Source: a virus. From it: a stretch of 43,685 bases of DNA. The notes under the pieces are model-generated. The model did not search any database, was not told the DNA's origin, and saw only the letters and a list, made by a program, of their open reading frames with translations. This document shows, in pieces, positions 1-43,685 of this stretch. A program made the translations under genes and the position numbers. Position 1 is the stretch's first letter. The number at the start of each line of letters is the position of its first letter. The stretch covers positions 1 to 43,685 of IMG/VR virus record IMGVR_UViG_3300036398_000576, one strand, 5' to 3'.

Positions 1-239
1 GCGGCTTCAGCCTGTGACGGCGTGGCCTTTAGCGCCTGCTCCCTTTCCCACTTGCGACGTTCTCGTGCAAGCCTCTTGCCGACCATCGCGTCCAACTCTT
101 CTTGAGAGAACGATTTGGTTGGCTTTTCCTCCGGCTGTTGCGTTTCTGCAACGACTTCGGGTTCCGGGGTAGCCGTGACCACCGGTTCCGGCGCGGATAC
201 TTCCGCTACGACTTCAGGGACTACGTTTTCGTCCGACAT
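1..239 (-). CDS. Possible scaffolding / capsid-assembly protein, 3' end off the window
   Basis: The open frame begins at ATG 239-237 and runs off the window edge after 79 codons. It has a good Shine-Dalgarno (AAGGAAGG) just upstream. The N-terminal ~45 residues are low-complexity and rich in Pro, Glu, Val and Thr. They are followed by a charged helical stretch (SFSQEELDAMVGKRLARERR, then KWERE). This layout, an acidic disordered start and then an EELDAxVxxRLARER-type coiled coil, is what I know from phage scaffold or capsid-assembly proteins, but only a fragment is visible. It lies downstream of two tailspike genes. The window already has a different scaffold at 36393-37250, so this one may belong to another phage (see the 127-bp finding). 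Without the C-terminus the call is tentative. Confidence 0.5.
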   Translation of the reverse strand, partial: MSDENVVPEVVAEVSAPEPVVTATPEPEVVAETQQPEEKPTKSFSQEELDAMVGKRLARERRKWEREQALKATPSQAEA

Positions 240-317
240 AACCTTCCTTACGGAAACCTGGTGAAACGCACCAGTACGGTTAAACTTTAACTTACAAGTT
301 GCGTCTGTGCAACAACC
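240..317 (-). other. Intergenic gap with two small hairpins
   Basis: This 78-bp gap separates the tailspike stop from the scaffold-like gene. It holds GTTGC/GCAAC (298-313, 6-nt loop), starting a few bases after the stop. It also holds CTGGTG/CACCAG (258-274, 5-nt loop) just before the Shine-Dalgarno. Neither has a clear U-tract on the - strand, so they are weak terminators at best. The second could affect translation of the next gene. No promoter is obvious to me. Confidence 0.35.
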
Positions 318-1748
318 TTAAGAAACTCGAACCTTGACGGCGGAGCCGGTGCGATACAAGTTTCCAACAGATATGCCGCCTGCAGCGGCAGCAGTGTCGT
401 CAGCAAAATTTTGTAGCAACGGCATCCAAATTTGCCGGTCATTTCTAAATCCAGCAATAACGTTGCCATTGCTGTCATACATGACAGCGGCATAGTTGGA
501 TGATGTTTGGTCATCTCCCGCTACGGTTAATTTAACGTCCGGTTGGATTGGATAGCCAATCCCAATATGCCCATTAAGGTCTTTAGCAAACTGGTTGGTC
601 GTGTCAGTCCAGGCTGTTGTTGCCGCGTTACCGGCCCGATACACGCCATTTACAACCTGCACGTTGGCAGCGTTAGAGATACCGCCCGGAGCGTAATCGG
701 CTGTAGAAATCAGACTTGTGCATTGAATAGCGTTATCGTGAAAACGGTTTGGGAAAACCGTATTGCCAGCAGAGAACACATATTCGGTTGGCCCGTAATA
801 CATGGTTGGGCCAACTGGGTTAAAAATATAGTTTCCTGTAATAGCGATGCTTTTGTTGGAAACGCCGCCCGCAAAGAAGTTAAATTCTGGCGAGAAGTTT
901 GATTCCAAATGGCAATTAGTTAGCGCAAATCCGCTGGCGCCGGTAATGTCGCAAATGCTGCCTTGGATACCTTCAATTACACAACTGGTGAAAGACAAGC
1001 CATTGGTGCCGCGAGCCGGGTCAATACAGCGCACAATCGTAAAGCCGTTTTCAATGATGCACTGGGTAAACTTGATGTCGTAAGAACCAGTAACATTGAT
1101 AAAGTTAGGCGGATTGTTCCGAATGTTGCAGTTTAAGAAGTATATTGTTTGCGCGTAAATCGGCGACAAAATGCAACGAATCAAGAAGAACACGCAGTTC
1201 TGGAACTTGATACGCAAGAAGTTAGGTGACAACACATAACTTCCGTTGAAGAAACTAGATGATTCAAAACGGATGTTTTCAAACGTTACAAACTCTGACT
1301 GCGGCGCAATCGTGTACGGCAACGTCGAGTTAAAAATTACAACGTTGCCAGCCGTGTAAAAGCCCGCATCCGGGCCTTCGCCGTAAATTGTGAACTCATC
1401 AGCGTTTTGATCAACCAATCTATTGATGATAAGAGAAGAACTAATTTTGCACTTACCTGGCACAACCAGAGTGGGCCAATTGTTAGCCGCGCAATAATTA
1501 AGCGCTGATTGCACGGATGCCGTGTCATCTGCGATTCCATCGCAAACAGCACCAAAGTCTTTAACGCTAACCCGCTCGGCAACCTTGTTTGAAAGCGAAC
1601 GAGATACCGCGCCAACGCCGGATCGCTTATACCCCAAGGCGCTAGTGGCTGCTTTTACCGTAATGCCGTTAGACACAACGGGATTTAATTCGGAACCGTC
1701 AAGCGCTCCGGCAGCAGGCAGTTGCGAAATCTTTTTCGTAATAGTCAC
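318..1748 (-). CDS. Tailspike with pectate-lyase-like beta-helix, 476 aa
   Basis: The start is GTG at 1748-1746, chosen for a GGAG Shine-Dalgarno six bases upstream. Residues 1-45 form the docking peptide shared with other fibres here (TKKISQLP ... NGITVKA). Around residue 60 comes VKDFGAVCDGIADDT, the signature that opens Pectate_lyase_3-type right-handed beta-helices in phage tailspikes. A long stretch of short beta rungs with many Asn/Phe/Thr follows. The last ~60 residues (DSNGNVIAGFRNDRQIWMP region) resemble C-terminal trimerisation or foot segments of spikes. It probably binds or cuts a surface polysaccharide at the tail tip; substrate and catalytic residues cannot be read off. The gene is clearly more AT-rich than the terminase and head genes, suggesting recent import. 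Confidence 0.75.
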   Translation of the reverse strand: MTITKKISQLPAAGALDGSELNPVVSNGITVKAATSALGYKRSGVGAVSRSLSNKVAERVSVKDFGAVCDGIADDTASVQSALNYCAANNWPTLVVPGKCKISSSLIINRLVDQNADEFTIYGEGPDAGFYTAGNVVIFNSTLPYTIAPQSEFVTFENIRFESSSFFNGSYVLSPNFLRIKFQNCVFFLIRCILSPIYAQTIYFLNCNIRNNPPNFINVTGSYDIKFTQCIIENGFTIVRCIDPARGTNGLSFTSCVIEGIQGSICDITGASGFALTNCHLESNFSPEFNFFAGGVSNKSIAITGNYIFNPVGPTMYYGPTEYVFSAGNTVFPNRFHDNAIQCTSLISTADYAPGGISNAANVQVVNGVYRAGNAATTAWTDTTNQFAKDLNGHIGIGYPIQPDVKLTVAGDDQTSSNYAAVMYDSNGNVIAGFRNDRQIWMPLLQNFADDTAAAAGGISVGNLYRTGSAVKVRVS

Positions 1749-1762
1749 GGCTTACTCCGTAA

Positions 1763-3778
1763 TTAGGCTCGGGTGTACGTCAATTGCAGGAAGATCGTAT
1801 CACCTGCGGCAAACGTAATTGGCGACGTGTTGGTGACGTTGGTGCCGTTGTTTAACTGCAAGCCAACCCCCGTGTCGCTATTGACCGATACGGCGCCGCC
1901 GAAATAGTACGTCGAGGGGCTGGTGTCAAAGATGCGCCAGTTGCCAATGTAACCAAGCGGGTTGGCATTGGTCGTAAACGGCAAGTCCAGCGTAATAATG
2001 CCAGCCCCAAACGAGGTCGTAGACCCTACCGTTAGCGTGGCATTAATGGTGACTTGCTTTTCATCAACAGTGTACGAAGCGTTCCGCGCTCCGTTGCCAA
2101 GCGTGATTGCCACGCCGCCCGACTTCCAAACCGGGGTAAACGTGATGTATTCGTAGTACCCAAAACGGTTGGTGACGGTCGTCGAGGCTTCGGCGTAGTT
2201 ACCCGTTACCATGCCCAGATACTTCTGGCGCTGGACGTTGAGGTTAGTCACCGTCACTTGGTCAATACGAATACCAAAATCCATCTGCTTGACAGTACGG
2301 TCGTCGATGAACGTGTTGTTTGAGATAAACAGCGCTTGGTAAGCCGTAGCCAGCGGAGCCACGCCGCTCAAGCCAATCGCCACGCCCTGCGGGGTCGTGT
2401 ACCCCGGCGCATCCGAGCAGTTACGGATGTAGTTGTTGCTAATCTCTAGCGGCCCCATGCCGTTTACCGAGTTGATGAACGTAGCAATACCAGAGCCAAA
2501 ATTGCTAAAGGCGTTGTCGCGGATAATGATGCCGCGATGATCATTGCCAGCATTACCTTGAGGCGTAATTAAAATACCAACAGACGGAATGGTTGCGCCA
2601 GTCTTTGAACAGAAGTTATTGCTGATCTGTACATTCTGGATGCGGAAGAACGACGCAATTTGAAACGCCGCCTTAAACGTCGGAACTACGCCGGTCAGAG
2701 TGCTGTCGTCAATCAATACCGTGTTGCCTTCAATCAGTACGCGGCTGATGTCTGTCTCGGCTTCGCTACTTCGGAAGAAGTCAATCGCATACCACTTAAC
2801 CGGCGAGAACGTGTTGTTTGAAATAATAATGTTGTTGGCAGGAGACGTAATGTTGGACGCCACCCACATTCCTTGCCAATAGTTACTGATAAAGTTGTTG
2901 GTAAAGCGCTGGTTTGCGCCGTGGACTTCGTACGCTACAAACGAACCGCTGTTACCCGAAATGCCGTTTGGGAACATGGTGTCGGCGGTAAAGGTGTTGC
3001 TTTCGCAGACGACATCTTCCGCCCATGCAAACACGCTGCTGTGATCGTCGGTATCCAAACCGTTGTTCTTGAACAAACAGTTGGTAATAGACCAATTCTG
3101 GCCAAGCGTCACGCCGATCGTGTTGCTCTGCGCCATTACGACGCACGAGGTGCCAGCGGTGTTAAGGAACTTGCAGTTGTCGACAACGACGTTATCGCAT
3201 CGAGCCGCCACGCCGCCGGTCGTACCGGTGACGTGGATCATGGCTTGGTTGTAGCGGTTGTAAGATGCCGGAGCAGACGGGCTGATGCGGTTGTTCAAAC
3301 CGTTCATATCCATCGTCAAGCCGACAAAACGGATGTTTTGCAGCGGGACGTTGGTGAAGAACATAGCCAGCCGCTTGGGAACCGCCAGCGTTGAGACGTT
3401 ATCCTTCAGTTTAAGAACAGCGCCAACTTCACCATACAGCGACATGTTTGACTGCATGATAAACGCGCAGGTCATCTGCCCTTCGCCGAGCGGAGTGCCT
3501 TCCCAATCCTTCAGCGTAGCCGGGACAACAATGTATGTTCCGCCAGGAAAATACACAGTTGAGCCGGTCGCAGAGGCCGCGTTGATAGCCGTCTGGATAG
3601 CGATGGTGTCGTCCGTAACGCCGTCTGCTTTGGCGCCGTAGTCTTGCGGCGTGACGTAGTTACGGAACGCGCTGAGTGACGCCTTAACGGTTACGCCGTT
3701 CTGAACGATAGCCGCAGGGCTAGACGCCGATACCGGACTGGTGGCGCTTGGGAGGTCTGTAATAGGGATAATAGCCAT
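1763..3778 (-). CDS. Tailspike / depolymerase with docking-peptide N-terminus, 671 aa
   Basis: The ATG at 3778 is preceded by GGAGTAA, whose TAA is the stop of the upstream 95-aa gene. Residues 1-42 are the short docking peptide (ITDLP ... VQNGVTVKASLSAF). From about residue 43 the spike signature appears (YGAKADGVTDDTIAIQTAIN). A parallel beta-helix body follows and then a C-terminal beta domain ending GVGLQLNNG ... LTYTRA. From that signature to the last residue it is collinear with and very similar to the 797-aa tailspike at 18551-20944, which has a different, T7-like N-terminus. The role is receptor binding and probably glycan cleavage; substrate unknown. It is the fourth gene of the fibre cassette read from 5695 downward. 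Confidence 0.8.
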   Translation of the reverse strand: MAIIPITDLPSATSPVSASSPAAIVQNGVTVKASLSAFRNYVTPQDYGAKADGVTDDTIAIQTAINAASATGSTVYFPGGTYIVVPATLKDWEGTPLGEGQMTCAFIMQSNMSLYGEVGAVLKLKDNVSTLAVPKRLAMFFTNVPLQNIRFVGLTMDMNGLNNRISPSAPASYNRYNQAMIHVTGTTGGVAARCDNVVVDNCKFLNTAGTSCVVMAQSNTIGVTLGQNWSITNCLFKNNGLDTDDHSSVFAWAEDVVCESNTFTADTMFPNGISGNSGSFVAYEVHGANQRFTNNFISNYWQGMWVASNITSPANNIIISNNTFSPVKWYAIDFFRSSEAETDISRVLIEGNTVLIDDSTLTGVVPTFKAAFQIASFFRIQNVQISNNFCSKTGATIPSVGILITPQGNAGNDHRGIIIRDNAFSNFGSGIATFINSVNGMGPLEISNNYIRNCSDAPGYTTPQGVAIGLSGVAPLATAYQALFISNNTFIDDRTVKQMDFGIRIDQVTVTNLNVQRQKYLGMVTGNYAEASTTVTNRFGYYEYITFTPVWKSGGVAITLGNGARNASYTVDEKQVTINATLTVGSTTSFGAGIITLDLPFTTNANPLGYIGNWRIFDTSPSTYYFGGAVSVNSDTGVGLQLNNGTNVTNTSPITFAAGDTIFLQLTYTRA

Positions 3779-3781
3779 TCT

Positions 3782-4069
3782 TTACTCCATCCAAGGCAGC
3801 GGCTTCGGTGCCACGGTCAGCGCAGCAGGCAGAGAGGCGTCTACGTCTTTCTCGACGAACGCTTTGTCCACGCGCGCCCAGACCCATGACAGGACGGTAT
3901 CTTCCGTCAGATCGGCATACGACACAAACGGCTGACCCGGAGCGCCGAGGTCTAACTTGCCGCGCATTGAGTTGTTACCCTCACACGCCCATGCGACTTG
4001 CGTGACCACATCGCTGTGACCATCAAGGCTTGGCGCGACGTACAGACCTTCGACTTTCCAATTAGCCAT
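3782..4069 (-). CDS. Conserved small phage protein following the fibre gene (copy A), 95 aa
   Basis: The ATG at 4069 overlaps the stop of the previous gene as TAATG. The protein begins [13 protein letters not shown] and has several Trp (AWACEG, LSWVWARVDKAF). It resembles a family of ~90-residue phage proteins found beside tail-fibre genes (DUF7936-like from memory, not verified). There is no signal peptide or membrane segment. A second copy at 41865-42152 has the same sequence except the last two residues (ME here, SN there). The seven base differences inside the shared coding part are all synonymous. It may be a fibre-associated accessory or assembly protein, judged from position only. Confidence 0.75.
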   Translation of the reverse strand: MANWKVEGLYVAPSLDGHSDVVTQVAWACEGNNSMRGKLDLGAPGQPFVSYADLTEDTVLSWVWARVDKAFVEKDVDASLPAALTVAPKPLPWME

Positions 4070-4117
4070 TACTTGTCCTCGTCAGCGGGCAGCGGCTTGT
4101 TGCCTTCTGCAAGCCAT
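3791..4117. repeat. 327-bp duplicated segment, copy A (partner 41874-42200)
   Basis: By eye the two copies differ at eight positions out of 327 (about 97.6% identity). The segment covers nearly all of the 95-aa gene and the 3' end of the small gene before it. Similarity stops abruptly on one side at the GGAGTAA ribosome-binding site of the next gene and on the other inside the small upstream gene. The next genes differ completely: tailspike here, portal at copy B. Confidence 0.95.
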
Positions 4118-4218
4118 TTCAGATATTCCTGATAGTCGGTGTTGGCGGGGTCAAATGGGATGCTGGCGTTGTCTGATAGACGCAAAACTGCAAATTTGCC
4201 AAGTAATTTGTATTCCAT
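4069..4218 (-). CDS. Small protein between fibre and 95-aa gene (copy A), 49 aa
   Basis: The start at ATG 4218 ([11 protein letters not shown]) is chosen because CGGAG lies seven bases upstream and the fibre gene stops at 4220. An upstream in-frame start at 4263 would lie inside the fibre gene. The stop is TAATG-coupled to the next gene. The C-terminal part ([16 protein letters not shown]) matches the end of the equivalent 53-aa protein at 42152-42313, while the N-terminal part differs. Function is unknown. The constant tail and variable head mirror the variable fibre tip upstream, which would suit a matched fibre partner or chaperone, but that is speculation. Confidence 0.7.
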
Positions 4219-4219
4219 T

Positions 4220-5695
4220 TTATAACTCCGCCGACAAAATAACTCTTGGAGCGTTTGCGCCACTTACAAGTTGTGCGCCATATCCGGCTGCACCGCCTGC
4301 TCCCGCCCACGTCGCGGAAAAAGATACAGTTTCTTTGGTTGAGTTTAAGCCACCATCTAAAGCAAGAGTGCTCAATGCAGAGGATATAGACCCATTTCTG
4401 GCATAAAAATCGCCAACTGTTCCTGTTGTTAAAGTTGGAGAAGCCCGCATTGGATTGCCAAAACTGTAAGTGAAGGTTCCCGAAGTTGTAGCCGATTGCC
4501 ACCCATCTGTAACTACTGTATACGCCGTATCCCCAGCCAACTTTTGGCAATACCGCTGGCACAGCATCAACTCCGTGCCAAAAGGTCTACGCTCAAACGG
4601 AGTGGCGACGGAGCCGGTTTCTAGTTGGACTCCGGTTACATACCAAGTGGCGCTGAGAGTTGCCATTAGGTTTGTTGCGCCGGTTGCGCCATAAATTCCG
4701 CTTGTCCCAGTCCACGCTCCAGCAGTTGCAGATGCCGATGCGCCTGACCCAAGAGAAAAAGTTACGGTGATGCCGCGTCCCGTTCCCGTTCCCCACGTTC
4801 CGGTTGTGTCGCCAGCCACGGTAACAGTCTTGTATTCCCAAGTGTTTGCCGCGTTAATGACGTAAGTAAAAGGATAGTTTCGGTCATTGGCTGCATTTTG
4901 CAAAACGCCACCAAACGTGCCTGTCACGCTTGAGCGAATCCAAAACGAGAGCGTTACTGTTAATGCGCCAGCAGCGCCCCAACCCAAATCCGCAACATTA
5001 GTGCCTTCGATGGCTTGGCGAAAAATATAGGATTGAGTTGCGCCAAGAGAAGCGTCTGCCGTTGTTACGGTTACTTTGGATGAGTTGATAAAGCCCGCAG
5101 GAACAACCGTGTCTTGCTGGACGGTAAAAACACCATCAGCAGACTGACCCGAAGCAAACCAACGGTCAACAGTATATGTGTTGGCGGTTGAGTTAATTGT
5201 CACCGCCGCACCCGCATTGCGCTGATCAATCCGCATATCACCGTTGATGATCCGGTTACGGAAGAACAAGCCGTTGCTGTTAAACGCAGCAGCGACCGTG
5301 CCGCCAGCAGAGACAGCCACTTCGTTCGCAGCAGGAAAGTACACGCCTGTGTCGGTGTCGCCCGTGTTCGTCACAGTCGGAGCAGCAGCCGTACCGTCTG
5401 CGTACTCGACCTTGGTCGATACCGCGATCACGCCCGTGGAGTTGGCAATAGTGGCCGCAGCCGTACCGTCTTTCGCTTTGAGGTTCGTCACCTCGACGTT
5501 CGTCGCATCCAGCGTGGTTGCGTTGGCAACACCAAACGTCTGGTCAGCGCTAAACGTGTTGGCGGTGCTAGTGACCAAGCCAAGCAGGTTAGTGCCAGTC
5601 AGTTTGTAGTTAGCGCCAGATCGAGCAATAACGTACTCGTCACCAGCCTGTGCCGGTGCGCCCGAAGGCAATGCGCTGATTTTGGTATCGGCCAT
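4220..5695 (-). CDS. Tail fibre, variable-tip copy A, 491 aa
   Basis: The ATG at 5695 has GGAGTAAGTC immediately before it. Residues 1-40 are the docking peptide ([20 protein letters not shown]), followed by a Ala/Thr-rich repetitive beta stem. Around residue 150 the motif [20 protein letters not shown] opens a carbohydrate-binding-like beta-sandwich region seen in many environmental phage fibres. A strongly conserved stretch follows ([20 protein letters not shown], then TELMLCQRY). The final ~100 residues differ completely from copy B (42310-43685). This suggests a constant shaft with an exchangeable tip. The 5' portion 5463-5589 is base-for-base identical to the window end. It likely binds a host surface receptor. 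Confidence 0.85.
5463..5589. repeat. 127-bp perfect repeat, internal copy (partner 43559-43685)
   Basis: Aligned by eye at a constant offset of 38,096, every base from 5463 to 5589 equals 43559-43685, the last base of the window. The next base outward is a mismatch (5462 C, 43558 A). The length of exactly 127 matches a common de Bruijn assembly k-mer and suggests an assembly-graph junction, not a biological terminal repeat. Confidence 0.95.
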
Positions 5696-18582: not shown

Positions 18583-20944
18583 TCAAATCGCCAGTTGCTA
18601 ACGTGACCGGCGACGTATTGGTTACATTGCCACCGTTATTTAACTGCAAACCAACTCCGGTTGAGTTTTCTGTAACAAACGCGCCGCCAAAATAATAAGT
18701 TGACAGGCTAGTGTCGAAGATGCGCCAGTTGCCGATGTAGTTGATGGTTGTTGGCGATGATGTGAACGGAATGTCTACGCTCAAAGCGCCGCCAGCGAAA
18801 CTGGTCGTCGATCCAACAAGCAGCGCAAAGCTGATTGTGACCTGCGCCTCATCAACGGTATACGAAGCATTGACTGCACCGTTTCCAACCGTGACAGCGG
18901 TTCCGCCGGATCGCCAAGTCGGAGTCAGGGCGACATTGGCATAGTAGCCAAAGCGGTTGGTCACCGTTGTCGAGGCTTCAGCGTAGTTAGCCGTTACCAT
19001 GCCAACATACTTCTGGCGCTGGACGTTGAGGTTAGTCACCGTTACCTGATCGATACGGATGCCGAAATCCATTTGCTTGACCGTGCGGTCGTCGATGAAC
19101 GTGTTGTTAGATATGAACAACGAGGCGTATGCCGTAGCCAGCGGAGCCACGCCGCTCAACCCAACAGCCACGCCCTGCGGAGTCGTGTAGCCAGTCGCAT
19201 CCGAACAGTTGCGGAAATAGTTATTGCTGATCTCCAGCGGCCCCATTCCGTTCGTCGAATTGATAAACGTCGCAACGCCAGAGTTAAAGTTGCTGAAGGT
19301 GTTATCGCGGATAACGATGCCGCGGTGATCGTTGCTCGCATTGCCTTGCGGGGTGATCAAGATTCCAATGGACGGGATCGTCGCGCCAGACTTTGAGCAG
19401 AAGTTGTTGCTGATCTGCACATTCTGGATGCGGTAGAACGATGCAATCTGGAACGCAGCCTTAAACGTCGGCAACGTGCCGGTCGTTGTGGTGTCGTCCA
19501 CCAGCACCGTATTGCCATGAATCAACACGCGGCTGATGTCTGTTTCAACTGCGCTGCTGCGGAAGAAGTCAATCGCATACCACTTGACCGGAGAGAACGT
19601 GTTGTTTGCAATGATGATGTTTTCAGCAGACGAGGTGGTATTCGACGCAACCCACATCCCCTGCCAGTAGTTGCTAATCAAGTTATTCACGAACCGCTGG
19701 TTCGCGCCGTGAACCTCATACGCCACAAACGATCCGCTGTTGCCAGAGATTCCGTTCGGGAACATCGTGTCAGCGGTAAAGATATTGTTTTCACAAACGA
19801 CGTTATCAGCCCAAGCAAAGATGCTGCTGTGATCGTCGGTGTCGATACCGTTGTTCTTAAACAAACACCGAGTGACAGACCAGTTCTTGCCAAGAGTCAC
19901 GCCGACTGTGTTGCTCTGCGCCATGACAAGGCAAGACGTTCCTGCCGTGTTGAGGAACTGGCACGAATCGATCTGGACGTTATCACCTCGAGCAGCCACG
20001 CCACCGATTGTGCCGGTGAAGTGGATCATCGCTTGGTTGTATCGGTTGTAGGATGCCGGAGCGGATGGGCTGATGCGGTTGTTCAAACCGTTCATGTCCA
20101 TCGTCAATCCGTAGATACGGATATTTGAGACAGGCACGTTTGAGAAGAACATCGCCACTCGCTTCGGAGCAGCCAACGTCGAGACGTTATCGGCAAGCTT
20201 GAGAACTGCGCCGACGTCTCCGTATAAACACATATTTGACGGGATGACAAAGGCCACCGTCATCTGCCCCTCGCCGAGCGGAGTGCCTTCCCAGTCCTTC
20301 AGCGTAGCCGGGACAATGCGATAGGTGCCAGCCGGGAAGTACAGCGTCTGTCCCGCGGCAGCAACCGTATTGATCGCGGTCTGGATCGCAGCCGTGTCAT
20401 CGGTTTGCCCGTCACCAACTGCGCCGAAATCCTTCACGCTCACAAACGGGGACGGCAGCGACTGCGCAGTAGGCGCACCGTTGCTGTCGAACTTGAGGAA
20501 CTTGCCAGCGCGATCTACCGAACTCGGGATTACAGTCGTGATGCTGGTCGAGTCAGTCGTCGGATACTTCAGCGCCCGATCGAAGTCGACATCAAGCTGC
20601 TGCGCAATCATCGTCAGCTTGTCGATGGCTTGCTCGAGCGTCTCGGCAGGCAGTCGATCGTTCGGCTGGAGATCCGTCTCTTGCGTCAGCGGGACATTGC
20701 GCGAGATGACCAGCGTCGTGCCAGCGGCAGGAGCTACTGTCATCGTGATCGAGCCGCCAGTCAGTACGCCTGCGCCCGTCACCGTGTAGTTGGTGCCGAG
20801 AACCTGCGGAGTCTCTACGCCCGCAGAGGAGCGCAGCACTACGGCCAGTTGAGAGTTGGCAAGAAAGTAGAACGGCACAGCAAAGAGCGTGGACGTTCCG
20901 TTGCCGGAATAGCTGATTCGCGCAGTTGTCGATGAGACGGTCAT
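18551..20944 (-). CDS. Tailspike with T7 gp17-like N-terminus and beta-helix domain, 797 aa
   Basis: Residues 1-130 (STTARISYSGNGTSTLFAVP, then ISRNVPLTQETDLQPNDRLP and LEQAIDKLTMIAQQLDVDFD) form the T7 gp17-type virion-anchoring domain of podovirus fibres. A linker follows, and near residue 165 SVKDFGAVGDGQTDDTAAIQ begins a pectate-lyase-like parallel beta-helix that runs nearly to the end. From that point it closely matches the 671-aa spike at 1763-3778. It is encoded at the end of the late operon, directly after the internal virion proteins, where T7-like phages put their main fibre. Probably a capsule- or LPS-degrading spike; substrate unknown. Its gene end overlaps the early operon. Confidence 0.9.
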   Translation of the reverse strand: MTVSSTTARISYSGNGTSTLFAVPFYFLANSQLAVVLRSSAGVETPQVLGTNYTVTGAGVLTGGSITMTVAPAAGTTLVISRNVPLTQETDLQPNDRLPAETLEQAIDKLTMIAQQLDVDFDRALKYPTTDSTSITTVIPSSVDRAGKFLKFDSNGAPTAQSLPSPFVSVKDFGAVGDGQTDDTAAIQTAINTVAAAGQTLYFPAGTYRIVPATLKDWEGTPLGEGQMTVAFVIPSNMCLYGDVGAVLKLADNVSTLAAPKRVAMFFSNVPVSNIRIYGLTMDMNGLNNRISPSAPASYNRYNQAMIHFTGTIGGVAARGDNVQIDSCQFLNTAGTSCLVMAQSNTVGVTLGKNWSVTRCLFKNNGIDTDDHSSIFAWADNVVCENNIFTADTMFPNGISGNSGSFVAYEVHGANQRFVNNLISNYWQGMWVASNTTSSAENIIIANNTFSPVKWYAIDFFRSSAVETDISRVLIHGNTVLVDDTTTTGTLPTFKAAFQIASFYRIQNVQISNNFCSKSGATIPSIGILITPQGNASNDHRGIVIRDNTFSNFNSGVATFINSTNGMGPLEISNNYFRNCSDATGYTTPQGVAVGLSGVAPLATAYASLFISNNTFIDDRTVKQMDFGIRIDQVTVTNLNVQRQKYVGMVTANYAEASTTVTNRFGYYANVALTPTWRSGGTAVTVGNGAVNASYTVDEAQVTISFALLVGSTTSFAGGALSVDIPFTSSPTTINYIGNWRIFDTSLSTYYFGGAFVTENSTGVGLQLNNGGNVTNTSPVTLATGDLITVQVTYTRA

Positions 20945-23484
20945 GGGTTTTCCTCTACAATTTTTTCAAGCTCTGGAGCGCGCGCCTCTGTCAATGGCTG
21001 ACCCGGCTCCCACCAGTATGTTGTGCCACGATCCCGGTATGATCTCGCCTGCGCTCGCTGCAAGTACCCCGGGTTAAAGTACTCTTGGAGCTGATTAAAG
21101 ATTAGTCGATCGAGCGCTGCTTTCGTGTACCAGATAGACCCACCGGGCGTGTAGCCCTTTACGGTACGCGCAACTTCCGCGCCAAAATCTGTTTCCTCTC
21201 CGGCAGCAGCTTCTCTCAAGTTTCCGATCGTCAGCTTGTACGCATCTTCTATTGCGCCAATCATTGGGCCGCCGAGCGCGCCAAACAAAGTACGCCCGTA
21301 TCCGTTGACCTCGGCAAATAGAAAGTCTCCGTACAATCCCATGCCGCCACCTTTCAAAGCAGCAGCGGTCAGGTTTTTTTCAAAGTTCTCTGAATCTGGA
21401 TCAAGAGTTGTCGGATCGCGACCAGACACTATATCGTTTACTGCCATCGAAATAGCGCCGAGCACAGTCTGCAATGCAATCAAGGTGGCGATGTACCCAA
21501 CCTTACTGCCAGCATTGTTGTACATCCCAATAGCGCGGCCCCAATGCTTGGAGATAACGGATAGCGGGAATGTCTTGAACTGCAAGAATGAGCGCAGAAT
21601 CTCGCCCGGGATGGTGCCGGGAGTTGTGCCGCCAGTAATCAATACGCGCTCTCGAGCGCTTGGCTCAATCACCGCGATGTCGCGCTCTTCAAGAACAATA
21701 GCTAGCAACTTTGTCGCCGCCTCGTTCTTTAAAGAATCAGGAGCATTCTGAACTGCGTAGATATTCTCCGGCGTCAAGACGGTAGCGCCTTGTCCCCAGT
21801 CATCTACGCCAGCCGCGCGCCACACATCCCAAACTTCCTGCGTGATGCCTTTGCCCTGCAAGATGCGGAAGTCTTCTGGATCAAGGCTGCTTAATGTTTG
21901 GGTGGTTCTAGTCAACGAGCCAATCGTGTCCATCATAGTCACGGCAAACGCGCGACGACGCAGCTCGGTCAAGGCATTCAAGCCAGACAATCGCAGAACC
22001 GTAGACGCCATAATGTTCGGGACTTGCGAGCCAAGCGTGTCCTCGCCAAATCGATTGGCATTGTCGATCATGGCGTTGACGATAAGGCCAGCTCGCATGG
22101 CCCGCTGTTTCTCGGCTTTGTTCAGCGGATTGAACCCGCGAACCTGATTCAAAAACAGTTTGAACATAGGCAAGCGATTAACGCGAGCCGTTAAATACAA
22201 AGTGCCTTCATCTGATATTGATGAAATGACAGCAGAGCCAAGCTTCATCGAAACGAACAGCGACCGAATGGTTGCCATTGCCGCGGCAAACCGACGCCGA
22301 GGAGGCGGCGGATTGTTTCCAGCGACGTAGTTGTAAAGCTGTTCAATAAAGGATGACTGAAGGTTAATCTTATCGCGCAAAAAAACTACGTTCTGCCCAG
22401 CTCTTGCGGCGCTAGTAACAGCCTCGTTGCCATACTTTTCAATTAAGTTGGCAACGGTCAAATCCGCATTGGGGCCAAACTGCTCAATAAGCGCAATGTC
22501 TCGAGACATCCGAGAGATGTGGCCGGTCATAGCCTCAAACACAGACCGACCAGAATAAGTCTGCATTGCAGCAACAGCAGAGTCTGCGTCCTTGAAATGC
22601 AACTGCCGACTCTTATTCCCGCGGTTAGCTTTAATCCCGCTTACGCGAGTTGTGTTCGGCCCAACAGTTTTGTTTGCGCCATCTGTTGCAATAGTGACCC
22701 ATGCCTCGGCAAGAAAGTCACGCATCTCTTGGTCGTTGTATCGAGTGCCATCATCGTGCACATATTTACTGCGATCGACCCAATCCATGAACGCATCGAC
22801 GAATCTGTTTTGCGCATCGTCTCCACGAAGAACAAGATGCGCATCCCATGCCTGCGGCATTGACCAGTTATCGAGCTTTCCGATATCGCCACCGGCAGCG
22901 TTGAATCGTTCGCGCAATGACTCGGCTAGATCCAGCCACTCTTTCGCAGCCTGCACTAACTCCGGCTTGAGGCCAGCGATCTGACCATATGCGGCGCGCA
23001 CAAAGTCAATCTCGGCGCGTCGGTTTGCAAGCAACCCAAAAAGTCGCGGGCTAATCTGCTGCCATGCATTGGCAAGTCTGCCCATTGCAGCGGCCATAAT
23101 GGCCTTGGCATTTACTTCAACAGATGTCGAATTGTTTTTGCCGTCTGACTTTCCAGATACCAATCGCTCGAGAGAATCTAATCCGTCCTTATCAATGCCA
23201 GCCGCGGCCTGATCTTGAACGTATTTCTCAACGCGATCGTTAGCAGCAATCTGCAACTGCAATCGCTGCTTCTTGAGTTGCGCTTCTTCAACAAGTTGTT
23301 GCGCCGCAAGATTAGCGGCCTCGGTCATCCGCTGTGATGTCGAAAGCGTTTGCCAGCGCGCCGGATCTTGGCGCGCAAGAACGACCATTGCGTCACGAAT
23401 GCGCTGCTCAATGTTGCGCGATTCGGCTACCGTAATGGTGCGACCGATCGCAGCTTGGACAGCGTTGATACAGACTTGGCGCAT
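20941..23484 (-). CDS. Internal virion / DNA-ejection protein (T7 gp16 position), 847 aa
   Basis: A large, mainly helical protein beginning MRQVCINAVQAAIGRTITVA. There are several hydrophobic stretches in the second half (GYIATLIALQTVLGAISMAV, then GGGMGLYGDFLFAEV), consistent with a protein that is carried in the head and enters the cell envelope during ejection. Its C-terminal region (GRTLFGALGGPMIGAIEDAY; GGSIWYTKAALDRLIFNQLQ) resembles the shared end of large phage inner-core and polyvalent proteins. It overlaps the tailspike gene by four bases and the 1504-aa gene by one. I see no lytic transglycosylase motif. Confidence 0.75.
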   Translation of the reverse strand: MRQVCINAVQAAIGRTITVAESRNIEQRIRDAMVVLARQDPARWQTLSTSQRMTEAANLAAQQLVEEAQLKKQRLQLQIAANDRVEKYVQDQAAAGIDKDGLDSLERLVSGKSDGKNNSTSVEVNAKAIMAAAMGRLANAWQQISPRLFGLLANRRAEIDFVRAAYGQIAGLKPELVQAAKEWLDLAESLRERFNAAGGDIGKLDNWSMPQAWDAHLVLRGDDAQNRFVDAFMDWVDRSKYVHDDGTRYNDQEMRDFLAEAWVTIATDGANKTVGPNTTRVSGIKANRGNKSRQLHFKDADSAVAAMQTYSGRSVFEAMTGHISRMSRDIALIEQFGPNADLTVANLIEKYGNEAVTSAARAGQNVVFLRDKINLQSSFIEQLYNYVAGNNPPPPRRRFAAAMATIRSLFVSMKLGSAVISSISDEGTLYLTARVNRLPMFKLFLNQVRGFNPLNKAEKQRAMRAGLIVNAMIDNANRFGEDTLGSQVPNIMASTVLRLSGLNALTELRRRAFAVTMMDTIGSLTRTTQTLSSLDPEDFRILQGKGITQEVWDVWRAAGVDDWGQGATVLTPENIYAVQNAPDSLKNEAATKLLAIVLEERDIAVIEPSARERVLITGGTTPGTIPGEILRSFLQFKTFPLSVISKHWGRAIGMYNNAGSKVGYIATLIALQTVLGAISMAVNDIVSGRDPTTLDPDSENFEKNLTAAALKGGGMGLYGDFLFAEVNGYGRTLFGALGGPMIGAIEDAYKLTIGNLREAAAGEETDFGAEVARTVKGYTPGGSIWYTKAALDRLIFNQLQEYFNPGYLQRAQARSYRDRGTTYWWEPGQPLTEARAPELEKIVEENP

Positions 23485-40201: not shown

Positions 40202-41865
40202 ACTCCCGGAACTGCTCTACGCGGGGCCGATGCCGCGATCTGCTCGGCCTTGGCAAATCGTTCGGCGGCTTGGCCTGCGATCGGAGCGGCGGCCAGCAAC
40301 TGCTCTGTCTGCTGCTGTTGCGCGTCCTCGGCATCCATCGCCTCGAGCTCCTCATCGGTGCGCAGCGCCTTGGCGGGCACACCATTGGCCTCGGCAATCA
40401 GCTTGATGGCCTCATCCGCATTGATGCGGCGCAGGACAGACATATCGCCAGAGACCTGTGCGACCGGCAGCATAGCCTCGATCGTGCGCAGGATACCCGC
40501 GGCCTCTTCGGTCTTCATCAACCGAGCGAGCGGCCCCTGATACTTCGGCAGGATCTCGCCACCCGATGACAAGTAGTCGAGCAGAACAGGCGGAGGCTCC
40601 GGCAGGTTAAAGCTTGCCGAGAGCAGGTCGAGCTCGCGGTCGATGATCGGCCCCAAGAACTCTGACTGTTGGCGACCCATCGTCGGCCCGAGCAGAGCGC
40701 CCTTCTCCTGCGCGCGCTGCAACACTTCGGTCGCAGTCATTGCCCGCGGCTCTTCGACAAGAATCTGGAACAGCGTCACCAAGAACGAGTCGTTTACGGC
40801 TCGGCGCTTTTGATCAGCCATCTCGATACCGATCGGCAGGTTGCCGCCTGTCATCAGAGGCTGCACCAGCGGCGTACCGTCGTCACGGAGGTACCCGTAG
40901 TTCAACGCATTGGGGCGCACGGAGAAGGCATTCAACGCCCCCTCTTCCGTCAGAATGAGCGGCGGATCAACCATGCGGTGCGCCATACGGAGCATGGTCT
41001 TTTCCATCTCTTGCAGGGATTTGATGTCGGCCAGAGCCTCCATCGCAGGAGAGCGCCCATAAATCTCACGCGGGCCGGTAACGTACCGACCGACCGCATA
41101 CGGCATCACTCGGTAACCGCTATCCTCGAGCAGCACCTGCCCCTCTCGAGAGACGTAGCGCGACAGGTATCGCATACCGTCAGCGCCAGCCATGCCTTCC
41201 TTGTAATCCGTGTTCGGGCGAACGCAATGCACAAACTCGAACATTGTGTTCGGCGCGCTCTTGGCCTGCTCGACAATTCCACGCGGCAACTTGCCAGCCC
41301 AGTTCGGGATCTGGATTGCTTGACGCGCAGAGAGCTGGAACGATCGGTAAACCGTATCGACGCGGCCAACGTGGTCGAGATCGATGACGAGCTCCGAGAG
41401 CGGGATCGCGCGATATCGCAGCGTGACGCCCGGCACCTCGTCGATAAACATCGCAGACGTACCGAATGCGCCGAGACTCATGTAGCACTCGAAAGCCTGA
41501 CTCGCAAAGTTTGCAGTCGGCGAGTAACGCTGACGGAACATGACGTCTCGCAGCGTGTCGCACCAGCGGCGCACAGCGATGTCGTCATCGAGCTCTGGGA
41601 TGCCGGTATGCAATCCGTGCCAGAGCTGCGTCGCAGGCGTCAGCATCGAATCCATCGCAGCAGAGAACCGCGGCAGAGCGCGCTGGGCAGTCGAGTCGAA
41701 GATCTTCTCTGATCGCTTCTCGCCCGGTGTACGCCAGCCAGTCATCTCGGCCATCGTCGGCCAGACTCGCTCGGCTACTTCCTGCCAATGGTTCTCCCAT
41801 GTACCACGCGCGCCCTTGAGACGATCGTAGCCCTCGAGGACTTCAGCAGCGCGTGAATCAGCCAT
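40198..41865 (-). CDS. Portal protein (head-to-tail connecting family), 555 aa
   Basis: It forms the dodecameric ring through which DNA enters and leaves. The opening RAAEVLEGYDRLKGARGTWE, HWQEVAERVWP and KIFDSTAQRALPRFSAAMDS, then LTPATQLWHGL, are diagnostic for podovirus head-to-tail connecting proteins. The middle (GPREIYGRSPAMEALADIKS, LQEMEKTMLRMAHRMVDPPL) and VEEPRAMTATEVLQRAQEKG also fit. The C-terminus is helical and Gln-rich (EDAQQQQTEQLLAAAPIAGQ). Length is usual. It starts TAATG-coupled to the 95-aa gene. Confidence 0.94.
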   Translation of the reverse strand: MADSRAAEVLEGYDRLKGARGTWENHWQEVAERVWPTMAEMTGWRTPGEKRSEKIFDSTAQRALPRFSAAMDSMLTPATQLWHGLHTGIPELDDDIAVRRWCDTLRDVMFRQRYSPTANFASQAFECYMSLGAFGTSAMFIDEVPGVTLRYRAIPLSELVIDLDHVGRVDTVYRSFQLSARQAIQIPNWAGKLPRGIVEQAKSAPNTMFEFVHCVRPNTDYKEGMAGADGMRYLSRYVSREGQVLLEDSGYRVMPYAVGRYVTGPREIYGRSPAMEALADIKSLQEMEKTMLRMAHRMVDPPLILTEEGALNAFSVRPNALNYGYLRDDGTPLVQPLMTGGNLPIGIEMADQKRRAVNDSFLVTLFQILVEEPRAMTATEVLQRAQEKGALLGPTMGRQQSEFLGPIIDRELDLLSASFNLPEPPPVLLDYLSSGGEILPKYQGPLARLMKTEEAAGILRTIEAMLPVAQVSGDMSVLRRINADEAIKLIAEANGVPAKALRTDEELEAMDAEDAQQQQTEQLLAAAPIAGQAAERFAKAEQIAASAPRRAVPGV

Positions 41866-42152
41866 TAGTTACTCCAAGGCAGCGGCTTCGGTGCCACGGT
41901 CAGCGCAGCAGGCAAAGAGGCGTCTACGTCTTTCTCGACAAACGCTTTGTCCACACGCGCCCAAACCCATGACAGGACGGTATCTTCCGTCAGATCGGCA
42001 TACGACACAAACGGCTGACCCGGAGCGCCGAGGTCTAACTTGCCGCGCATTGAGTTGTTACCCTCACACGCCCATGCGACTTGCGTGACCACATCGCTGT
42101 GACCATCAAGGCTCGGCGCAACATACAGACCTTCGACTTTCCAATTAGCCAT
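41865..42152 (-). CDS. Conserved small phage protein following the fibre gene (copy B), 95 aa
   Basis: Identical in protein to copy A (3782-4069) for the first 93 residues; the last two differ (SN here). All seven nucleotide differences in the shared part are synonymous, so the protein is under purifying selection in both contexts. The stop overlaps the portal ATG (TAATG) and supplies the GGAGTAAC ribosome-binding site. Likely fibre-associated, by position. Confidence 0.8.
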   Translation of the reverse strand: MANWKVEGLYVAPSLDGHSDVVTQVAWACEGNNSMRGKLDLGAPGQPFVSYADLTEDTVLSWVWARVDKAFVEKDVDASLPAALTVAPKPLPWSN

Positions 42153-42200: not shown

Positions 42201-42313
42201 GCTTGGAATTCGGGATACTCGTCCGTGCAGGTCAGGCGGCACAAACCATCGTCGTCAATGCGAGCGTAGATTTGTGGCTCGCCTTCGTTTTTCGGCAGCA
42301 TCTTGTACGTCAC
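42152..42313 (-). CDS. Small protein between fibre and 95-aa gene (copy B), 53 aa
   Basis: Hand-translated from GTG 42313, which overlaps the fibre stop (GTGA) and has GGAG nine bases upstream: MTYKMLPKNEGEPQIYARID, then CTDEYPEFQAWLAEGNTPLP. The C-terminal ~16 residues match copy A (4069-4218), the N-terminal part does not. As with the fibre tip before it, the variable half and constant half may move as a matched set. Function unknown. Confidence 0.65.
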   Translation of the reverse strand: MTYKMLPKNEGEPQIYARIDDDGLCRLTCTDEYPEFQAWLAEGNTPLPADEDK

Positions 42314-43685
42314 AGTTCTGCACTCCATCCGAGGTAGGCTGATGAGTTTGCGCCCGTTGCTTGCGTGATGTTACCCGCAACAATGTTTGCGGCAACCGTA
42401 AAATTAACCGCGCCATAAGCCGTTGTGGTAAGAACGCCCGCATACGCAGGAACAGCAGAACACGCTTGAACGCCACCTCCGGCTTGATAAAGTTGATAGT
42501 CAGTCGCGGTTCCTGATTGTTCCAAAGCAGACGGCGCAGTACGCATTGTTACTGGATACGGTATCAATGCGCCTGCTGATGTCGTGCTATAGCATTGAGC
42601 AAAACCAAATGGGTAATTAGCGCCTGTAGATTTAAGCCGATAATAATACCGCTGACACAGCATCAACTCCGTGCCAAAAGGTCTACGCTCAAACGGAGTG
42701 GCGACGGAGCCGGTTTCTAGTTGGACTCCGGTGACGTACCAAGTGGCGCTGAGAGTTGCCATTAGGTTTGTTGCGCCAGTTGCGCTGTAAATGCCGGTTG
42801 TTCCAGTCCAAGCGCCTGCTGTTGCAGATTGAGATGTCCCAGAGCCAAGCGAAAACGTAACTGCAACGCCGCGATCCGTGTTGGTGGCCCATGTTCCTGT
42901 GGTATCGCCCGCAATCGTAACGGTCTTATATTCCCAAGTGTTTGCGGAATTAATAACGTAAGTAAACGGGTAGTTGCGAGTGTTGCCGTTGTTATTTAAC
43001 GCGCCGCCAAATGTACCCGTGACGCTTGAACGAACCCAAAACGACAGCGTAACTGTCAATGCACCCGCTGCGCCCCACCCCCAATCTGCGATGTTGTTCC
43101 CTTCAACAAATTGACGGAAAAGGTACTGTTGCGTTGCACCTAGTGACGCATCTGCGGTGGTAACGGTCATTTTGGATGAATTAGCAAATCCGGCAGGAAC
43201 AACCGTGTCTTGCTGGACGGTAAATACACCATCAGCAGACTGGCCAGAACCCAACCAACGGTCAATAGTGTATGTGTTTGCGGTGCTGTTAACTGTCACC
43301 GCCGCACCAGCATTGCGCTGGTCGATCCGCATATCACCGTTGATGATCCGGTTACGGAAGAACAAGCCGTTGCTGTTAAACGCAGCAGCGACCGTGCCGC
43401 CAGCAGAGACAGCCACTTCGTTCGCAGCAGGAAAGTACACGCCCGTGTCGGTGTCGCCCGTGTTCGTCACAGTCGGAGCAGCAGCCGTACCGTCTGCGTA
43501 CTCGACCTTGGTCGATACCGCGATCACGCCTGTGGAGTTAGCAATAGTGGCAGCAGCAGTACCGTCTTTCGCTTTGAGGTTCGTCACCTCGACGTTCGTC
43601 GCATCCAGCGTGGTTGCGTTGGCAACACCAAACGTCTGGTCAGCGCTAAACGTGTTGGCGGTGCTAGTGACCAAGCCAAGCAGGT
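42310..43685 (-). CDS. Tail fibre, variable-tip copy B, 5' end off the window
   Basis: The frame stays open to the window edge, so the start is missing; the ORF start at 43674 is an internal Leu codon. It matches copy A (4220-5695) in the shaft and in the [20 protein letters not shown] region, but the last ~95 residues (GFAQCYSTTSAGALIPYPVT ... YLGWSAEL) are unrelated. If 43685 continues at 5590, as the 127-base identity suggests, the frame is kept and the complete protein is 493 residues with the same docking peptide. Role: receptor-binding fibre. Confidence 0.85.
   Translation of the reverse strand, partial: LLGLVTSTANTFSADQTFGVANATTLDATNVEVTNLKAKDGTAAATIANSTGVIAVSTKVEYADGTAAAPTVTNTGDTDTGVYFPAANEVAVSAGGTVAAAFNSNGLFFRNRIINGDMRIDQRNAGAAVTVNSTANTYTIDRWLGSGQSADGVFTVQQDTVVPAGFANSSKMTVTTADASLGATQQYLFRQFVEGNNIADWGWGAAGALTVTLSFWVRSSVTGTFGGALNNNGNTRNYPFTYVINSANTWEYKTVTIAGDTTGTWATNTDRGVAVTFSLGSGTSQSATAGAWTGTTGIYSATGATNLMATLSATWYVTGVQLETGSVATPFERRPFGTELMLCQRYYYRLKSTGANYPFGFAQCYSTTSAGALIPYPVTMRTAPSALEQSGTATDYQLYQAGGGVQACSAVPAYAGVLTTTAYGAVNFTVAANIVAGNITQATGANSSAYLGWSAEL
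43559..43685. repeat. 127-bp perfect repeat at the window end (partner 5463-5589)
   Basis: Identical over exactly 127 bases to 5463-5589 and ending with the window. It marks where the assembly path probably re-enters itself at 5590. Confidence 0.95.

Follow-up and report, generated by a model that had tools for sequence, protein, structure and literature searches.

We consider it highly probable that a beta-helix tailspike module is exchanged among podovirus types, each type carrying it on its own anchor, and that the window analysed here (the whole 43,685-nt IMG/VR record IMGVR_UViG_3300036398_000576) is a chimeric assembly showing two versions of it. More specifically, a module of 590 residues would circulate by recombination among several podovirus types, and its N-terminal attachment would be supplied by each type: HTVC010P/BcepC6B-like phages (type X) would use a gp17-like anchor, and P22-like phages (type Y) a short ISxLP docking peptide. 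The two versions are P0001 (1763-3778, minus strand), a 671-aa peptide-anchored spike in a stretch attributed to type Y, and P0002 (18551-20944, minus strand), a spike of 797 aa that bears this beta-helix domain on a gp17-like anchor and is attributed to type X. At both loci the plus-strand reading contains many stops and the ORFs lie on the minus strand.

Residues 40-671 of P0001 align with residues 166-797 of P0002 without a gap and to the last residue, and over these 632 codons the two are 80% identical in amino acids and 76% in nucleotides. The initial annotation had described the spikes as collinear and very similar from the DYGA/DFGA motif to the end, which is confirmed; a blastn match between the genes of 77.5% over 1842 nt rules out likeness in short motifs only. 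It had also called the parts before the motif unrelated, and indeed the N-terminal parts share 13% amino acid identity over the 39 residues that can be aligned, so that by alignment they are unrelated. Along the shared part, identity is 64% in codons 44-82, which hold the DYGA..GDGxTDDT motif, 90% in codons 83-103, 85% in the helix core (codons 104-500) and 67% in codons 546-671, the last 126 residues differing by a third. With the helix core at 85% identity, a common receptor specificity is plausible. Convergence, or merely a generic pectate-lyase-like beta-helix scaffold in common, has hardly any probability as an explanation: the DFGA..GDGxTDDT motif is generic and occurs also in an otherwise dissimilar 476-aa spike of the window, but the 80% identity runs gapless to the last residue.

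Synonymous divergence, which had been proposed as a check, is high over the shared part (dS 1.26 by NG86 to 1.76 by YN00, with dN of about 0.13), and the longest exact tract between the two genes is 36 nt. The 80% identity on a single contig would also fit a spike domain that had recently been duplicated inside a genome and then passed to the other anchor, but these values make such an origin very improbable, as does a tree of the spike domain, built without the N-terminal motif, in which the P0001 domain groups with other peptide-anchored type-Y spikes and the P0002 domain with gp17- and third-anchor spikes. Gene conversion within one genome was likewise rejected on these dS values, all above 1, and on the shortness of the exact tracts.

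Both proteins match the Pfam family PF12708 (Pect-lyase_RHGA_epim; P0001 53 bits, P0002 50.7 bits, cut-off 27). An AlphaFold2 monomer model had a mean pLDDT of 72.5, with the helix region mostly at 70-95 and about 70 C-terminal residues (600-671) poorly predicted. Foldseek matched the model to the HK620 tailspike (E 5e-13), and VIA gave matches to the AlgE4/6 epimerases (Z 34), the HK620 tailspike (Z ~32 over 442-487 residues) and the Sf6 tailspike (Z 31), with phi29 gp12 also among the matches (Z range 31-34). Judged from the profile and the model, the shared part is a right-handed beta-helix tailspike with an HK620/Sf6/AlgE-like fold. By analogy with its tailspike and AlgE relatives, the domain would bind and probably cleave a surface polysaccharide, and it presumably works as a trimer. 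Seven acidic residues, D157, D242, D245, D266, E284, D333 and E341, are invariant and are candidates for a catalytic role. HK620 and Sf6 are P22-like phages, as is the type-Y backbone, and their tailspikes are right-handed beta-helices too; unlike the spikes described here, they have a different N-terminal attachment, and sequence identity to them is only 11-17%.

The best viral structural neighbour of the model was the tail protein of Achromobacter phage JWDelta/JWAlpha (V9SKC4), which is also the strongest sequence match from an isolated phage (29% over residues 45-357), although less than 50% of the query is covered and the ends do not align. The isolated-phage collection searched held no relative above 30% identity across the full domain, and when the first 25 kb of the window were compared with phages by megablast, only short patches matched. 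In a profile search of 84,980 prokaryote genomes, the best match to the spike was in Sphingomonas, with 34% identity over less than half of the query, and no host was called; the other matches were mostly to the generic DFGA motif.

The initial annotation had distinguished two anchors, a docking peptide of about 42 residues and a T7 gp17-like domain. The first holds at about 43 residues: codons 1-43 of P0001 (3650-3778, minus strand; MAIIPITDLPSATSPVSASSPAAIVQNGVTVKASLSAFR...) encode an ISxLP-type docking peptide with the pattern MxTIKISQLPxATxPLTGxE..VTKKA, which many type-Y spikes share. L014-L016 have this peptide at 100% identity, although identity in their spike domain falls to 66%, and a diverged form occurs on the neighbouring 476-aa spike and on the 491-aa fibre. 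The second, codons 1-131 of P0002 (20552-20944, minus strand), holds in a wider sense. It matches PHROG 1640 tail protein (1e-40 over residues 1-129) as well as the N-terminal part of Dpo31, a tailspike of known structure (2.4e-15 over residues 1-128), and is 47% identical to BcepC6B and HTVC010P fibres, but the Pfam domain PF03906 (Phage_T7_tail) scored 16.6 bits (E 0.0067), under the cut-off of 25.2. The P0002 gene directly follows a virion protein gene (20941-23484). Judged from these matches, the P0002 N-terminus is a gp17-position tail fibre/spike anchor of podoviruses. It is conserved (63-82%) in 14 type-X records, and in five tabulated type-X records no similarity to the C-terminal part of P0002 was found.

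About two dozen relatives of the spike domain were found in IMG/VR, on three anchors and in three podovirus types. Besides the docking peptide, the domain is carried by gp17-like anchors in G008/L028 and G020/L024 and by a third anchor, MSVLLKNNAF...VRAQEGTAAQA, in G009/L012 and L022. The third phage type (G009, 47 kb) encodes two consecutive spikes (L051:4362-8272) with related anchors, MSVLLKNNAF and MGVVLKNNAV, and the first of them carries the spike domain of P0001 and P0002. On well-supported branches, the spike-domain tree requires that the gp17-like anchor was gained or lost at least twice. Pairs of both kinds exist: P0001 and L014 have the same anchor (100% amino acid identity) and different spikes (45% in the C-terminal part), whereas L018 and L021, as well as L024 (gp17-like) and L018 (peptide), have nearly the same spike on different anchors, the last pair reaching 91-100% nucleotide identity over most of codons 140-350. 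Anchor and spike therefore move separately.

The anchor-switch crossovers appear to lie near codons 83-103 of P0001 (3470-3532, minus strand; VPATLKDWEGTPLGEGQMT), a probable crossover zone just past the first beta-helix turn whose DNA is conserved across alleles. Within it, codons 88-99 (TLKDWEGTPLGE) have a mean pairwise nucleotide identity of 0.83-0.89 across alleles, versus 0.69 for the rest, and L018 and L021 become nearly identical from about codon 86. The initial annotation had seen a clean domain graft starting at the DYGA/DFGA motif. The tree branches and the L024/L018 pair argue for recombination, and that part stands; the boundary needs to be moved. The DYGA/GDGxTDDT stretch is 97% identical between P0001 and L014, which have a common anchor, and 64% identical between P0001 and P0002. 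A graft boundary at DFGA was rejected because the motif is family-wide, as the 476-aa spike illustrates, and mostly goes with the anchor side, which places the graft point about 40 codons further downstream.

The same annotation took the graft as showing that one receptor specificity can be moved between the fibre locus and the main tail-fibre position, which implies that a single phage has both. The structure of the contig does not support this setting. A 127-bp sequence at 5463-5589 recurs as the right end of the contig (43559-43685), with a mismatch immediately before the match, and the contig ends at this 127-mer. The assembler commonly applied to this collection has 127 as its maximum word size, and a terminal repeat of exactly this length is what a k=127 assembly-graph junction leaves behind. 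Two records, G011 (39,721 bp, type Y) and G025 (36,261 bp, type X), have 127-base terminal overlaps and are therefore complete circular genomes assembled in the same manner. End 127-mers with a second, internal copy are also present in the related linear IMG/VR contigs G016, G023, G024 and G028, so that lollipop contigs of this sort seem to be frequent among these phages.

Closing the contig at the repeat gives a ring of 38,096 bp (5590-43685), an apparently complete HTVC010P/BcepC6B-like podovirus genome carrying only the gp17-anchored spike. Joining 5590-5695 to 42310-43685 yields an intact 493-aa fibre ORF, and gene order and size of the ring match the type-X records G023, G024, G025 and G028. 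In the near-complete type-X relatives compared, the genome is collinear with the ring and the left genes of the window are absent; L069 and L132 have the order fibre, 64-aa gene, 95-aa gene, portal. The type-X portal is related to those of HTVC010P-group and BcepC6B phages and unrelated to that of type Y. GC content along the contig gave no clean separation of the two parts and was not used as evidence.

The remaining 5.6 kb (1-5589) is very probably a fragment of a P22-like type-Y phage ending in the scaffolding gene, as judged from its gene content: part of a fibre, a 95-aa gene, P0001, the 476-aa spike and the start of a 260-aa protein, which matches type-Y contigs. Of the latter, which is cut by the contig end, the N-terminal 79 aa are present (1-239, minus strand); they show 98.7% identity to 260-aa proteins encoded by L005 and G001. 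The 260-aa protein belongs to phrog_8865, head scaffolding of the P22 type. The portal, head-closure and DNA-ejection proteins of type Y are P22-like, and in G011 and the isolate DSL-LC05 the spikes are encoded between portal and scaffold; in DSL-LC05 the scaffold gene follows the tailspikes, the same place as at the left end of the contig. The 476-aa protein (318-1748, minus strand) is a second peptide-anchored beta-helix spike of the type-Y cassette with an ISQLP-type docking peptide. It is 82% identical in L005, and other type-Y contigs have in its place a 516-aa spike with a similar N-terminus and a different body.

Two genes of this fragment have counterparts in the ring. The 95-aa gene (phrog_7802; 3782-4069, minus strand), upstream of P0001, has a second copy upstream of the portal (41865-42152) that is 96% identical in nucleotides. 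This small gene, common to the fibre cassettes of the two phage types and with 93 residues identical between the copies, stands before the spike in type Y and before the portal in type X. The tail fibres (phrog_4492) at 4220-5695 and 42310-43683 are 87% identical in nucleotides over about 1 kb and differ at their C-terminal ends, and a phrog_4492 fibre with an ISALP-type N-terminus is carried by both types. Since the 95-aa and fibre genes are truly common to types X and Y, genuine recombination between the types occurs.

This observation bears on the reading in which P0001 and P0002 are truly encoded by one phage: recombination between the two fibre/95-aa copies would have inserted a cassette made up of fibre, 95-aa gene, P0001, second spike and scaffold, so that the same domain would be presented from two attachment points of the virion. 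The presence of both spikes on one contig and the duplicated 95-aa and fibre genes flanking the putative insertion speak for it, but it would require a partial P22-type scaffolding gene in a phage with an unrelated capsid, and this scaffold occurs in none of the type-X records tabulated. Moreover, the contig stops precisely at a 127-mer that it also contains internally, and complete relatives match the ring by itself in size and gene order. We consider such an insertion distinctly improbable, and equally so a real recombinant in which a type-X body had captured a type-Y fibre cassette, with the same domain on both anchors of one virion. Type-X and type-Y markers were mutually exclusive in 34 other tabulated records, and only the window has both. 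Taken together, the repeated 127-mer, the complete type-X ring, the left type-Y fragment with its scaffold and the marker exclusion indicate that the contig is very probably chimeric through an assembler error, and that P0001 and P0002 very probably stem from separate short-tailed phages. In this chimera, the type-Y piece would have been attached to the type-X genome at the common 127-mer in the fibre gene, which both phage types carry. The two source phages probably coexisted in the sample and may share a host. A further metagenome, 3300036985, contains a type-X contig with a spike 97% identical to P0002 and a type-Y contig with a spike 86% identical to P0001.

Comparable exchanges are known. 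In E. coli O-antigen phages, tailspike receptor-binding domains are exchanged between genera on genus-specific anchors, and a conserved DNA motif at the border of anchor and domain has been proposed as a recombination hotspot (PMC10408124). As in those phages, the anchors described here follow phage taxonomy and the C-terminal spike domain crosses types; the differences are that these are uncultivated podoviruses and that the conserved block is another one (VPATLKDWEGTPLGEGQMT), lying inside the spike domain. In Klebsiella phages of the KP32 and KP34 groups, depolymerase-type receptor-binding proteins (RBPs) attach through an anchor domain or a short conserved N-terminal peptide, and the depolymerase domain is horizontally exchanged (PMC6872550). 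The same two modes of attachment and the exchange of the spike domain are found here, but in the Klebsiella phages the two kinds of RBP act jointly on a single virion and a T4gp10-like branch is present, whereas P0001 and P0002 were assigned to different phages instead of to one genome. In P0002, where 35 residues separate anchor and spike, no Pfam or PHROG match named for a T4gp10-like branching domain was found.

Linear IMG/VR contigs with an internally recurring end 127-mer thus call for caution, since they can fuse two phages at variable fibre genes and mimic a phage with duplicated receptor-binding domains. The biology seen here is inter-phage exchange of receptor-binding domains, an already known process, and it provides an example from uncultivated phages of one receptor-binding module spread across three podovirus body plans, with a crossover zone that can be mapped.
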